From positions 1 to 64,000 of the forward strand of contig WSYJ01000009.1 in the NCBI GenBank assembly GCA_020186115.1: a stretch of 64,000 nt of DNA, in the 5' to 3' direction. The notes under the pieces were generated by a model. It searched no databases, was not told where the DNA came from, and worked only from the letters and a program-made list of their open reading frames with translations. Position 1 is the first letter of the stretch. Every line of letters begins with the position of its first letter. Position numbers and translations under genes: made by a program. Below, in pieces: positions 781-6,141 of the stretch. The stretch is from Histomonas meleagridis. Its lineage: Eukaryota > Parabasalia > Tritrichomonadida > Dientamoebidae.

Positions 781-3182
781 TCATTTTATATGGAAAATAC
801 ATTTAATTCTATCATAAACTGAATGAATGCCTTCAATATTAATTAATTCATGTTGTTTTTTCGCATGATTTAAAATTCCTTTTGCATCTGAACTCCAACA
901 GACTTTACAATGATTACACATATAACCTTCTCTATGTGATAATATATCCAAGCAACTAGGAATTTTATTATTAAGCTTAGTATAAGCTATAATAGTAGAC
1001 CAAAACCAACCTATAGTATTTATATTTTCATCAAATTCTTGATGTTTATGTGAAATATGAGAAATTAACGATTTATGTGCATTAGTGAAATAATCACAAT
1101 TAGGGAAAGGACAAACTATAACATTGTTCCTATAAATGTCTTTTTCTAAATTATTCGAATTATTTAATATTAACCAAATTAAGTCTTTCTCTATTAAGTT
1201 TTTAATACAACCATATAAATGATTTTTATCAGGTTTTAAACCATGTATTTTGTTCATATGATTATTTAAAGCATTTCCTGTTTTAAATTCATTCTCACAT
1301 TGACATTGGCATGGGAATTGGCCTGGTACACACCATTTCCCTTCTCTAATCATTATATGGATTAATGGTTGTTTAGCTAATGGTAAGTTATCATATTTCC
1401 AATTGTTAAGTTCTTTCGTTGGTCTCCATTTATTAATTAAATTATAAATATCTTCTTTACTGACACATTTTTTAATATCTTCAATTAATTCATCATTCAT
1501 GTCTACAGTTTCTTGAACTAATTCATGTTCATCTTCTTCTTCATCATTATTAGTTAAAGTATTAATATTTCTATGAAGTGGAATATTAGTGTCTGAACTT
1601 GATTCTTCTTCACTAAGATTATCTTCCATATCTGATTTATCTGAAGTAGAAATTGTGAAATAGTTACTTAAGTTTAAGACTTTAGGAGTATGTTTATACA
1701 TAATTTCAAATTCAGGAATATCAATATTTATCGTTCTTTTAATTGGGTTAAAACAAATCTCATTTTCTTCAATATTAACAATTTGAGTCTTCAACGTTTT
1801 GTTTACATCTATTTTAAGTTGTTCAATTAACGCTGTTTCTGTTTTATTCCTAAATAAACTTTCTACAAAAAAGAGATTCAACAATAGGTTTTGTGGTTTT
1901 CTTAATAGCTTCTGGTATAATATGTAAAGATTCTACATCTGGGTTAATAGTTTTATTATTTAAATTCGGAATAATTTGTAATGAATCAACATTCGAATTA
2001 ATAATTTTATTGTTCATAACAGGTTTAACATTCAAAGAATCAATATTAGGATTAACTTCAACATTATTATACACAGGGTTTGCTTTTACTGAATCTATTC
2101 CTGTATTTACTTGTATGTCATTAAATTTGGGAATTGCATGTACAGAATCAATGTTAGTTGTAATTATTTTTCTCATTAAATTTTGGTTCTGCTGTTAAAG
2201 AATCAATATTAGTTGAGATTGTTCTTTCATTAATTATCGGATTAACTTCTAAAGAATCAACCTGAGTATCTACTGTTTTCTCATTTTGTATCTGATTCAC
2301 ATGTAACGATTCAATAACTGGATTTGTAGTAATTGATTTCTCGATTGGTGTAACTGAATTGATTGGAGATTCAATATAATTAAATTGATTTCTCGTCATA
2401 TCTGTGAATTGTAACTCATTATGTATCATGTTGTGGTTAATTTGATTAATTGATCTTAAATCGATCTGACCAATGTTATAGAAATGACATGTCGCCCATA
2501 TATTTTGTGTGTTGTTATTAACTATTTCAACATTTAAATTAATAGCTTTCTGGATAAGATACTTATTTGCAACATTAAATATATTTTTGAACTTTTGGAT
2601 TATCACTATTTAACCGAAATGGTAATTCTCTAGGTCTGGTTGGTCCTACGAAAGTTCTTAAATCAAACACACCTCTCTCAATTTCGTCGGACGATGTGAG
2701 TCTTGGTGGAAAATTAAGGTTGATTAACAGGTTTCCTTCTTGAATAATGCATTGATTTCGGCATAAAACTAACCCTCTTTCTTCGTTGATAAATATTGGT
2801 AGTAAAAACGAAATATGTGGATCTGATGAAATAATTACCCATTGAGGTGGGACTCCTTCTTCTCCATATAAATCGGGGTTTGGATTTGATTATAATGAAT
2901 ACCACTAACAAGAAGGAATTCTTGTTGAAGTGGTTCACCAAAAATTAAAATCAATTTCTGTTATCTTTTTTCTCGCAAATCTGAGGGGGTTTCAGCAGGT
3001 GAAGGACATCGTCGTAGGTGCTTCTGTATAATAGGAGATCGTTCAAGTCGTTTACGCATTTCCGAATCGTCGATATAATTTATTGATCGAAATTTCGATT
3101 CGCCAAAAAGGGTATCATTAGAGTGCCCTGGGGGAGATATTTCCGAAAATCGAGTTCTCGGACGCAAAAAATCAATATTCAT
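781..3182 (-). pseudogene. Broken multidomain gene: family N-domain, IDSL repeats, three C2H2 fingers
   Basis: Reading leftward from the ATG at 3182 (MNIDFLRPRTRF) I can follow one protein through one TAA stop at 2961-2963 and about four single-step frame changes (near 2885, 2590, 2165 and 1865). The last three lie in short T or A runs. Segment 2960-2600 (GEPLQQEFLL, then WVIISSDPHIS, CIIQEGN) is clearly homologous to the N-terminal part of the next gene (3525-5882). Next comes a region of about ten degenerate ~20-residue repeats with a core of (I/V)(D/E)SL..xP..N. The C-terminal part has an acidic stretch and three C2H2-like fingers (C-x-C-x12-H-x4-H, C-x4-C...H, C-x2-C...H), ending near 781. 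Three N-terminal fingers occur in some R2-like retroelements, but no reverse transcriptase is visible, so that origin is speculative. Confidence 0.65.
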
Positions 3183-3191
3183 AAAAAATCA
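3131..3191 (-). repeat. Inverted repeat, right arm
   Basis: This is the partner of 1-61 in inverted orientation. It contains the start codon (3180-3182) and first ~20 codons of the broken C2H2 gene plus its T-rich leader. It lies directly beside the 15-bp copy of the tRNA-Asn 3' end at 3198-3212. Confidence 0.75.
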
Positions 3192-3197
3192 AAAAAA

Positions 3198-3212
3198 TCT
3201 CCTCCCGTGTGG
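3198..3212 (-). repeat. 15-bp copy of the tRNA-Asn 3' end
   Basis: The plus-strand string TCTCCTCCCGTGTGG here is identical to 5883-5897, which covers the acceptor 3' strand, the discriminator and part of the T stem of the tRNA-Asn gene. The rest of a tRNA is absent. It lies 16 bp upstream of the start codon of the broken gene at 3182, as the full tRNA lies 1 bp upstream of the gene at 5882. The two copies are direct repeats 2,685 bp apart, like an attachment-site duplication or a remnant of a tandem duplication. Confidence 0.7.
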
Positions 3213-3268
3213 TTTATTCATTAAATATCATTATAATTAGGTGTTTTAAAGATCAAAAGGAATTAAAA

Positions 3269-3604
3269 TCAAAATGTGTGAACCTTGAGGATTTGTTGCC
3301 AACGGAAGGGGCCAACAATCCAATTGGAAACTGGCATCATGAACTTACTGAACCTAGTGAACCCACTGAACATATTGAACATATTGTACCAATTAAGGAC
3401 TGAACAAAATAAAGGGATTAACTTATGTCGCAAAACGAGACCTGTGTAGCCAACGGAACCAAATTCATCTTCAATCTTCTTTGTTTCCAAATTTCTCAAT
3501 ACTGAAATTAATAAAATATTTAAATTAAAGAAAATGTTTGACGAGCGGAGACGCGAAGGCTGATAAGGGTTTTTGTTCCTTCTGATCGTTCCGAGTACAA
3601 TCAA
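3269..3604 (-). pseudogene. Frame-shifted C-terminal tail of the 3525-5882 gene
   Basis: This open stretch reads IRRNKNPYQPS where the main frame reads an unrelated string, so the third repeat copy and the following ~85 codons belong to a different frame from the upstream gene. One missing T in the run near 3603 explains the shift. It has no independent promoter or good start and is best treated as the displaced end of the preceding gene. Confidence 0.5.
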
Positions 3605-5882
3605 AAATATTTCTTCGTTTTAAATATTTATTAATACTTTCTGTTGATAATTTATTCCTTGTTACACTTACATTTGAATACATCAAATAAATATACAATA
3701 TGTTCTTATCTAAAAATATATAAATTTCAATAAGCAATAATAATAAACTATTAAGATTGAGATTGAGATTAAGATTAAGAATTGTTAAAATCTTCAAATT
3801 AATGAGATCTAAAACAAAGAAGTTGTTTGATTTACAAATACGCGAAGGCTGATAGGGTTTTTTGTTCCTTCTGATCATATTTGATGAAACCAAAATGTTA
3901 CTATGTTTAAGAATGGTAAACAGCTTTGAAGATTGAATAAAATAAATGCTTATTAAAAAAACTAATAAATTGAACAATTTTATAAGTGAGTAAAATAGTA
4001 TAGATAAGAAATAAGGGATAATTGATGTTATAAAGTTAATTCCTAAGATAATTATATTTCCAATTCGAATTGTCTGAAGAATTGATATGTCGAGAAGTGA
4101 ATTATTTAATAAAGTATATAATAATAATTGAGGTAAAGCGATGAAATTGTCTAATATCAAATAGAATAATGATTTACTAAATCTACAATTACCTGAAGGC
4201 TTAAGGGGTTTTTTGTTCCTTCTATAAGTAATATGTAGAATTAATGATAACCAAATATTCCTTTTAATGTTAAACAATTTCATATATTTTGAATTAATTA
4301 TTATTAAATACTTCGAATTCAACATATGATTAAAAGCTTGAATCGAATAATCAATAAAATTATTAGTTAAAGGATCTGGATCAAGATCGAATATATTAAT
4401 AAAGGCATCCAGATCCTTAACTAATATTAACTTCTCTTTTAATTTAACTCTAGCCACGCCGTCATCAGTAAATAAGAAACAATAACTTTCCGGGTGTTGA
4501 TAATGATAAGTTAATGAATTAAGTAAGTTAAAAGTGAATAATATATTATGAGATTTGAAGTTTTGATAATTAATTATAATATTGAAACATTTTAACATAT
4601 CAGTCAAATTTTTAATATTTGTAATTTCATTGTCGTTATAATTATTATTGTCATTAATATTATTTATCATATGATTCTCATCAGAATTTTCATTAACTTT
4701 CATTTTTTGATTTTCTTTAAACTCTGCTTTATTAGACTCCAGATCTTTATGCTCATCATTGTCCTTAATATCTAAAGAACTATTGAACTGCGACCTTACT
4801 GTCAAGTAGCATTGTAGATATAAAGAAATTAAGAAAGATATTGATTCATTAGATGTAAAAGATCCAAGAACATCTCTTTCATATAAAAACGATGAATAAG
4901 TCTTTTCAGTTTGTCTTTCATTAATCATCTTGATTACAGCAAGATTCTTTTGTTTAAGGTTCACATGTTTGTTATTAAAAATATCTTTAATTTCCTCATC
5001 AATATTCTCAAATAAATTTGGTGTATTAGCAAATATTTCTCGGAAAGATTCAATATTCATGTTTGAACTAATTGTATATTTAATCGAATCATGTGTATCA
5101 AATAAATATCTTGAGTTATATTTCAAACCATGTAAATAATCAATCAAAAGTCTTGAAACATTAATGATTTTAGAAATAAAATCATAATCTTCACTTAAAT
5201 TAATAATAATATTTGAATAAGTAATATAAAATTTAGCAATACTTCTATAATATTTCGTTTTATGATTAAAAATGTTAACTGGTTGAAAATTCTTATAATA
5301 TAATAAATTTTGGTTAAAGAAAAGATTAAGATTTATAACATTATTATCAATTTCATATTGTGTAAGTTCAAATGGTTCTAAACTAACATCTAATCTAAGA
5401 CATTTATCTTGATCAATAATACAATGACCTCTCTGAATAATTAAGCAATCTAGATTTGAAATATAAACAGGTAAATGGACACTAATATTCGGGTCAGCAC
5501 TAATTATAATTGATGAAGGTAATGGTTTGTTGCCAACATTAAATGGGTACCATTTGTCAGGACGATAATGTAAACCTTTTAAAAGTAGGATTTCGTATTG
5601 AAAAGGACGGCCATGGTCGATGGACCGAAAAGGGTAAAATCTTTGTTCTTCTATCTCGACTCCTGAGGGTAATCCTGAGACATTAAGCATATGATTAATG
5701 AGTAATGGCTGAGTATAGTGTGGCAAAGGGGTAGACTTAATGAATTGTGGTAAATAATTAGGTATGCATTTCGAAGAATTTGCTATGTTTTGATCAAAAA
5801 GTATATTATCTTGTTGTGTAGATGGTCTTGAATCATATTTTCGATTTTCAGCGTGTAAAAATGACTGTGTAAAAAAATTCAT
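3525..5882 (-). CDS. Large protein of unrecognised family behind tRNA-Asn; C-terminal RRNKKP repeats
   Basis: I chose the ATG at 5882, which lies 1 bp past the tRNA 3' end; an ATG at 5906 would start inside the tRNA. The product is about 785 residues. Residues ~60-190 (GRPFQYEILLLKGLHY, SIIISADPNIS, CIIDQDK) form a domain shared with the broken gene at 781-3182. The middle is Asn-rich and hydrophilic, and the last ~250 residues are hydrophobic with several possible membrane segments. Two copies of a RRNKKP(L/Y)(K/Q)PS block lie in this part. A third copy at 3557-3585 is in another frame: shifting one base in a T run near 3600 would extend the protein through 3269. No known family is recognised. 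Codon use is very AT-rich. A membrane protein of an accessory element is possible, but that is inference. Confidence 0.6.
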   Translation of the reverse strand: MNFFTQSFLHAENRKYDSRPSTQQDNILFDQNIANSSKCIPNYLPQFIKSTPLPHYTQPLLINHMLNVSGLPSGVEIEEQRFYPFRSIDHGRPFQYEILLLKGLHYRPDKWYPFNVGNKPLPSSIIISADPNISVHLPVYISNLDCLIIQRGHCIIDQDKCLRLDVSLEPFELTQYEIDNNVINLNLFFNQNLLYYKNFQPVNIFNHKTKYYRSIAKFYITYSNIIINLSEDYDFISKIINVSRLLIDYLHGLKYNSRYLFDTHDSIKYTISSNMNIESFREIFANTPNLFENIDEEIKDIFNNKHVNLKQKNLAVIKMINERQTEKTYSSFLYERDVLGSFTSNESISFLISLYLQCYLTVRSQFNSSLDIKDNDEHKDLESNKAEFKENQKMKVNENSDENHMINNINDNNNYNDNEITNIKNLTDMLKCFNIIINYQNFKSHNILFTFNLLNSLTYHYQHPESYCFLFTDDGVARVKLKEKLILVKDLDAFINIFDLDPDPLTNNFIDYSIQAFNHMLNSKYLIIINSKYMKLFNIKRNIWLSLILHITYRRNKKPLKPSGNCRFSKSLFYLILDNFIALPQLLLYTLLNNSLLDISILQTIRIGNIIILGINFITSIIPYFLSILFYSLIKLFNLLVFLISIYFIQSSKLFTILKHSNILVSSNMIRRNKKPYQPSRICKSNNFFVLDLINLKILTILNLNLNLNLNSLLLLLIEIYIFLDKNILYIYLMYSNVSVTRNKLSTESINKYLKRRNIFDCTRNDQKEQKPLSAFASPLVKHFL
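3557..4220 (-). repeat. Three spaced copies of a ~30-bp RRNKKP-coding block
   Basis: Near-identical blocks lie at about 4192-4220, 3845-3875 and 3557-3585. Each reads on the minus strand as AGAAGGAACAAAAA followed by CCC and a GCCTTC end. Spacing is about 345 and 290 bp. Flanking protein sequence is also weakly repeated (a hydrophobic stretch before, and a Ser-x-x-Phe-Phe pattern after), so these mark degenerate ~100-residue repeats whose Arg/Lys/Pro core is best conserved at DNA level. Confidence 0.65.
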
Positions 5883-5883
5883 T

Positions 5884-5957
5884 CTCCTCCCGTGTGGCTC
5901 GAACACACGACTTCCAGATTAACAGTCTGACACTCTAACCAACTGAGTTAGGGAGGA
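5884..5957 (-). tRNA. tRNA-Asn (anticodon GTT)
   Basis: The minus strand folds as a 74-nt tRNA: a 7-bp acceptor stem TCCTCCC/GGGAGGA with discriminator G, a D arm containing AGTTGGTTAGA, an anticodon arm CAGAC-TGTTAAT-type with GTT anticodon, a 5-nt variable loop and a T arm with GTTCGAGCC. There is no intron and CCA is not encoded. The following protein gene starts one base past the discriminator, unusually close for a nuclear genome. Confidence 0.93.
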
Positions 5958-6141
5958 AGCCTGTAGATATTTAAATAATTATTATATAATAATTATTTTA
6001 ATTATCATTTTTTTAAAATCATTTTATTTATGAATTTTAACAATAATTTTTTTTGTTAATAACGCATTTTTATTCCAATGAATTTTTTGATATATTAAAA
6101 ATTATGATTAAAATTTTAATTATGTTGATTTTTAAATTTAT
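5958..6141. other. Intergenic, AT-rich
   Basis: This gap upstream of the tRNA and downstream of the CSN7-like gene is nearly all A and T with T runs. No box or gene is recognised. Confidence 0.4.

Follow-up and report, generated by a model that had tools for sequence, protein, structure and literature searches.

R2, a retrotransposon without long terminal repeats (non-LTR) that targets 28S ribosomal DNA, has a reverse transcriptase (RT), a restriction-like endonuclease (RLE) and zinc fingers; target-primed reverse transcription is established for it, and its insertion interrupts the 28S gene. Other retroelements use tRNA genes as safe sites, among them Dictyostelium TRE5, TRE3 and Skipper-2 and yeast Ty1 and Ty3; the three Dictyostelium elements ignore the tRNA species and use other endonucleases or integrases. 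Dada elements are DNA transposons without RT. TRE5, TRE3 and Skipper-2 are described as inserting either upstream or downstream of tRNA genes or of their start, at a distance of 8–150 bp (PMC5911963), and Dada transposons are described as targeting small RNA genes including tRNA genes (PMC8869645, PMC3706591). RLE elements reported as specific for tRNA genes include NeSL-1_TV of Trichomonas vaginalis (tRNA-Pro) and LIN15_SM and LIN25_SM (PMC4640811). Here we describe elements of this kind in the turkey parasite Histomonas meleagridis, starting from positions 1 to 64,000 of contig WSYJ01000009.1 (the window, 64,000 nucleotides). In the window, the 15-mer CCACACGGGAGGAGA (minus strand) forms the 3' end of a tRNA-Asn gene at 5883–5897 and recurs in the same orientation at 3198–3212. 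From sequence comparisons over the whole genome (43,276,120 bases, 121 contigs), we read this repeat, with a probability of about 0.93, as the target-site duplication of a site-specific non-LTR retrotransposon of the RLE kind, at least seven families of which appear to follow the same cut rule on seven tRNA species. The features of the locus are as follows.

5883..5958, minus strand: tRNA-Asn(GTT) gene, the intact target (ARAGORN; Rfam RF00005 match on the same DNA, L009)
5883..5897, minus strand: putative target-site duplication, copy 1, tRNA nucleotides ~60–73 plus one base (sequence, genome 15-mer search)
3213..5882, minus strand: predicted non-autonomous element of 2670 bp, its 5' end joined to the 3' end of the tRNA (close copies on C68, two, and C98)
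5871..5877, minus strand: run of seven T (minus strand) inside the first codons, candidate replacement terminator for RNA polymerase III (Pol III) (sequence)
3525..5882, minus strand: open reading frame (ORF), 785 codons long and beginning immediately next to the tRNA, without detected RT or endonuclease (no Pfam family over cut-off)
5316..5612, minus strand: conserved N-terminal domain (GRPFQ/GEPLQ), common to RT-bearing full-length proteins (iterated profile search)
3213..3219, minus strand: 3' terminus ...GAATAAA of the non-autonomous element (junction reading, tail comparison)
3198..3212, minus strand: putative target-site duplication, copy 2, the 3' junction, without the rest of the tRNA (junction reading, 15-mer search)
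795..3197, minus strand: 5' part of a second, full-type tRNA-Asn element, with ATG at 3182, N-terminal domain and zinc-finger region to about 795; frame broken, without RT (5' end like full elements)

The span 3198–5897 is one element plus its duplication, and the copy at 3198 doubles as 3' junction of the 2.67-kb element and 5' junction of the element that follows. An earlier note made from the letters of this DNA had pointed out the second 15-bp string, lacking any other part of a tRNA, and two ORFs, one starting at 5882 right next to its copy of the string and the other at 3182, 16 nt from its copy; both observations hold, the second ORF being broken. The bracketed unit that it called a 2.7-kb gene module also exists, but it belongs to a genome-wide retrotransposon family and is not a local module.

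The 15-mer occurs in the genome in 36 exact and 2 one-mismatch copies, against 2 hits for the reversed pattern with one mismatch allowed, and its recurrence is therefore not due to chance. A tRNA-Asn gene on the same contig and strand contains or precedes 30 of the 36 exact copies; for six no such gene is in view (C16:3724, C65:1371, two on C76 and two on C102). The elements lie in the orientation of the tRNA, with the 5' end at the tRNA 3' end, and their own 3' end, mostly ...AATAAA or ...AAACAN, is followed by a second copy of tRNA nucleotides ~60–73 (+1). Steps along the arrays, counted from the tRNA, are mostly 5.9–6.6 kb, the size of a full Asn unit (for example 3112087, 3105527, 3099057 and 3092551 on C120, and 7083, 13489, 19962 and 26441 on C65); short units of 2.5–2.7 kb are found in the window and on C68 and C98. 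Tandem arrays of this sort would also be expected if a tRNA-plus-gene unit had been duplicated by recombination and the tRNA lost later, one of the two origins put forward in the earlier note. We consider this very improbable: the internal junctions examined carry only the 3' 14–15 nt of the tRNA, cut at the same place, the pattern is the same at seven tRNA species, the units encode RT and endonuclease, and single insertions with one flanking duplication occur, for example at tRNA-Met loci. Among 30 junction loci read, 10 had the full tRNA and 19 the 15-mer only, while one at a contig edge (L059) was undecidable. These counts, with the coding content of the units, bear out the note's other proposal, a tRNA-targeting element. 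A protein family lying away from tRNA genes, which the note had named as counting against such targeting, was not seen: 35 of 40 family-protein matches lie on contigs with an exact 15-mer, and the remaining five are on C32, where a 58-nt junction has a 90% match. The genome holds 12 full tRNA-Asn matches, 11 of them followed by an element; the twelfth (C114:88339) is an empty site, which the note had proposed to look for in other strains. At this sole empty gene (L006) a T run comes next and a host gene, by eye presumably that for phosphoglycerate dehydrogenase, starts some 40 bp further.

Judged by their predicted proteins, the full Asn units are non-LTR retrotransposons with zinc fingers, RT and a PD-(D/E)XK-like endonuclease. 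The copy on C54 (L030, L069, L049), with broken frames, shows the N-terminal domain, C2H2-like zinc fingers, RT motifs and a C-terminal RPDIW...IIEVTIPYG...K block, and its C-terminal piece (L049:772-1440) scores over the cut-off for Pfam PF15518, which we take to be a PD-(D/E)XK-type nuclease family. In a copy with RT that follows tRNA-Ile (L112), a frame of 1834 codons is open, and its ATG uses the last A of the tRNA; this frame has an RVT_1 match (E=2.4e-38) and a CTIC...H...C knuckle just before a stop, the endonuclease part lying after a frame break. The whole arrangement stands in one frame in a database protein (P0002, 2003 aa, 61% identity in the RT region). Visual or pattern inspection showed CX2CX(n)HX4C and PD...E motifs in the ORF of L049, in P0002, in the majority line of A1 and in both L113 and L114. 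The best PDB matches of the RT region are R2 retrotransposon proteins, with LINE-1 further down, so that R2 provides the closest solved structures. The elements hence combine a non-LTR RT (RVT_1 in L112, the genome matches given below and the R2 relatives in the PDB), a C-terminal CCHC motif with a PD-(D/E)XK-like endonuclease and no APE domain, and target-specific insertion with alteration of the target site, as in the RLE group. They depart from the Dictyostelium TRE pattern of an APE endonuclease and insertion outside the tRNA gene: the 3' junction lies within the tRNA gene, and Pfam scans of the C54 pieces and the Ile-family protein gave no APE endonuclease family. In outline the geometry, with its regenerated tRNA 3' end and tandem accretion, is also that of bacterial and archaeal DNA elements that have a tRNA gene as attachment site and a tyrosine or serine recombinase as integrating enzyme; the earlier note had pointed to such duplications in bacteria. 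The analogy breaks down on the machinery, since Pfam shows RT and an endonuclease-like domain and no such recombinase was found in four window ORFs, eight C54 pieces and one Ile-family protein; we give this explanation hardly any weight.

RT genes were then compared with tRNA ends over the genome. All 79 first-look candidates were scored, yielding at least 73 RVT_1 matches (a lower bound), 71 of them over the cut-off. Their positions were set against the 3'-end strings of seven tRNA species (Asn, Ile, elongator Met, Lys, Tyr, Cys and Arg), identified with ARAGORN (Tyr only with introns allowed), up to 8 kb upstream or 4.5 kb downstream of the RT. A same-strand string was present upstream of 64 of the 73, downstream of 53, on either side of 71 and on both sides, from the same species, of 46; the opposite-strand control gave 3 of 73. 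No RT match had strings of two different tRNA species (0/73), which is the pattern of one-tRNA specificity. The upstream string is a tRNA or a duplication, the downstream string usually a duplication. The matches form 60 RT groups: 23 for Asn, 11 for Tyr, 7 for Ile, 5 each for Lys and Met, 4 for Arg, 3 for Cys and 2 unassigned. The unassigned matches are C16:64623 (+) and C16:24408 (−), with none of the seven strings in reach; the former lies 11.6 kb downstream of the start of a same-strand Asn array and may be the second element of that array. A tandem Cys copy without a recorded RT match is suggested at L139 (C40:109780-109990), where sequence resembling the 5' end of another Cys element comes after the 3' string of a tRNA-Cys element.

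In the examined junctions of all seven species the repeated string starts directly after the T-loop sequence GGTTCRA(N), at nucleotides ~59/60. The junction strings are CCACACGG for Asn, TCCCTGCG for Ile, TCCCGTCG for Lys, CCCCATCC for Met, TCCGGCTT for Cys (two junctions), TTCCAGCA for Tyr (five) and TCCTGGGT for Arg (one). The duplication ends at or just past the discriminator base, and the tRNA thus stays whole. All 32 tRNA–element junctions tested (Asn 10, Ile 6, Met 5, Lys 5, Cys 3, Tyr 2 and Arg 1; further Cys, Tyr, Arg and Asn junctions stand outside this count) have a run of at least six T in the first 22 nt after the tRNA, compared with 3.4% (622/18,280) of random 22-mers from the window; the 32 are not independent, copies within a family being related, and one (C109, L083) is a diverged Ile junction. 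In the window element, as in the Ile, Met and Tyr families, the first codons contain the run; in the usual Asn form, Lys and Cys it is part of a leader. It probably serves as a Pol III terminator in place of the displaced one. Six families have a candidate start ATG at a distance of 0–19 nt from the tRNA, as do two of the three Arg junctions, the exception being L111; in the Ile and some Tyr copies this ATG uses the last A of the tRNA. R2 elements carry a 5' ribozyme; Rfam at gathering scores returned only tRNAs, and no known ribozyme, at the element 5' ends in L112, L030, L069, L049 and L009. A common promoter motif was not found either, a TCA-type initiator being inconsistent upstream of 22 window ORFs.

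These junctions can be accommodated in a simple scheme. The element protein would recognize one tRNA gene and nick the bottom strand in the T loop, between about nucleotides 59 and 60, which we take to lie inside the B box. The 3'-OH of the nick would prime reverse transcription of the element RNA, as in target-primed reverse transcription, and the top strand would be cut at the discriminator base or just beyond it. The ~14–15-bp stagger would become duplicated, leaving the upstream tRNA gene complete and again a target, which would explain the arrays; the T run in the first ~22 nt of the element would replace the displaced Pol III terminator.

The 2.67-kb element of the window has three near copies, two on C68 and one on C98, with the same ends and 98.8–99.4% identity over aligned ORF bases, one of the C68 copies carrying a deletion of about 200 nt; related copies at 93% are present on C102 and C32. 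Its ORF contains no Pfam family over the cut-off. By iterated profile search the domain at 5316–5612 recurs in full elements of the Asn type, in the Cys family and in ten database proteins that have an RT (P0003, P0006, P0008, P0010, P0011, P0023, P0024, P0030, P0033 and P0037); its predicted fold (pLDDT 67, pTM 0.62) had no PDB match at E≤0.001, the five at E 5.9–10 being meaningless. Because the N-terminal domain is kept and RT and endonuclease are lacking, we regard the element as a probable satellite that most likely depends on a full element specific for tRNA-Asn to copy it in trans; a satellite without RT bears an outline likeness to HeT-A of Drosophila. It could also be a degenerate deletion copy of a full element that no longer moves. 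The C102 and C32 copies differ evenly over codon positions (39/36/46 and 31/25/21), so that purifying selection on the ORF is not seen in them, the 3' tail is weakly like that of full elements, and array duplication could have made some of the 2.67-kb copies. We nevertheless think a deletion copy unlikely, as all four copies, that in the window, the two on C68 and the one on C98, have both ends in common, are each followed by the 15-mer and show ~1% aligned difference, which indicates that this form itself was copied recently, and as the frame is open for 785 codons in the window. The last part of that frame hangs on one homopolymer T absent from the three close copies. Between near-identical copies, 12 of 18 counted indels lie in homopolymers (gap runs overlapping other gaps, such as the ~200-nt deletion, are skipped), and some frame breaks may therefore be sequencing errors.

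Past the second element, the end of the contig (window 1–794) is composite: 5–60 is an inverted copy of the first 56 bp of a full element, 60–794 matches C84:1359909-1360643 with 98% identity, and the second element breaks off at about 795. This end is either a real rearrangement or an assembly artefact.

Relatives were sought among database proteins. RT searches returned 114 + 11 proteins, and the first tree, which omits short or weak ones, holds 102 of them plus 10 Histomonas rows; the trees were made with a quick method and SH-aLRT only, without bootstrap. One RT clade (SH-aLRT 100) unites 53 database proteins with all seven families of Histomonas, Arg being represented there by C83, which is placed in that family by its 3' junction. 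By target, the three Asn rows cluster and so do the two Cys rows, the other families having one row each. The clade is apart from proteins with a Ulp1-protease domain, which we took as NeSL-like, the named NeSL-1, R2 and NeSL-1_TV being absent from the tree. Among 12 loci from genome collections, three from one metagenome-assembled genome (L113–L115) were used and the other nine, at 24–27% identity, were left out. L113, on a contig with 46% guanine plus cytosine (GC), encodes an RT of the same clade and ends in ...AATAAACGAATTTA-CCACACGGGAGGAGA-TTTTTTTT, that is, the 15-mer and then eight T. It groups with the Histomonas Asn elements in a clade of 30 rows (95), with targets known for six rows only; together, its end and its grouping place the Asn target and its cut in another species. 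L113 and kindred contigs, at about 45% GC, are eukaryotic retrotransposons in a GTDB genome named Lachnospiraceae (CAMWTP01), probably as contamination by a parabasalid. Residues 1–10 of P0047 (MQVRVLPSA...) read like a translated tRNA T arm, which suggests that its ORF also directly follows a tRNA. No relative on a viral contig was confirmed among 186 stretches.

Compared with the described systems, NeSL-1_TV is close in kind, being an RLE element specific for one tRNA gene in a trichomonad (PMC4640811); it is reported there for one tRNA species, and is compared here by description. The earlier note knew of no such element in trichomonads. LIN15_SM (tRNA-Arg) and LIN25_SM (tRNA-Glu) of planaria, in the R5/LIN lineage of the NeSL clade, are likewise described as tRNA-gene-specific RLE elements (PMC4640811), but they have an animal host and are outside our tree, and their lineage, as described, mixes 28S and tRNA targets, whereas Histomonas has seven tRNA targets with one cut rule. 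R2 targets rDNA, whereas the Histomonas elements leave the tRNA whole. The first cut in Histomonas would lie inside the tRNA gene and be species-specific, in contrast to TRE insertion outside it.

Several points weigh against a site-specific RLE retrotransposon as the source of the duplication. Many copies have broken frames, some of which may be assembly errors in repeats. The seven strings and the 8-kb and 4.5-kb limits were picked after the tRNAs and spacings near the RTs had been seen, the control was the opposite strand only, with no unsuspected tRNA species included, and 2 of the 73 RT matches have no assigned tRNA string. Among the 46 RT matches with strings on both sides, at least one, a Cys case on C57, has a whole tRNA-Cys gene in place of a duplication downstream. 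The nick position is ambiguous by 1–3 nt where element and target share letters. Finally, beyond the last TAATGAATAAA the satellite tail only weakly resembles those of full elements: 9 of 12 full-element tails score above all of 50 shuffles, though narrowly (top 27 vs 22), and 3 of 12 do not.

In a broader reading, which we favour somewhat over its negation, nearly all RT detected in Histomonas would be one lineage that radiated over at least seven tRNA species with a single cut geometry. Its members would be obligate appendages of tRNA genes that spare the tRNA, bring a Pol III terminator, place their ATG 0–19 nt from the tRNA end and spawn satellites keeping only the N-terminal domain, with target choice as a swappable module over a fixed cut rule. 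The seven-target radiation and the shared cut rule seem new; the supplied terminator and the ORF-bearing satellite further set these elements apart, the machinery being of the same kind as in known RLE elements. No paper on tRNA-targeting elements of Histomonas was found by title or abstract start in a search that left subscription papers and Repbase outside, and a Repbase entry may exist. Table 1 of the published annotation of the virulent strain gives 32 retroelements and 5,358 bp (PMC8529796); to the annotation of Histomonas the present analysis adds 58 assigned element groups, which by inference amount to a few hundred kilobases. The elements show a way to insert kilobases beside a tRNA gene without losing the tRNA, which is of interest for safe-site insertion tools. 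With seven related families at the same place in seven tRNA genes, the choice and change of targets by RLE elements become testable by comparison.

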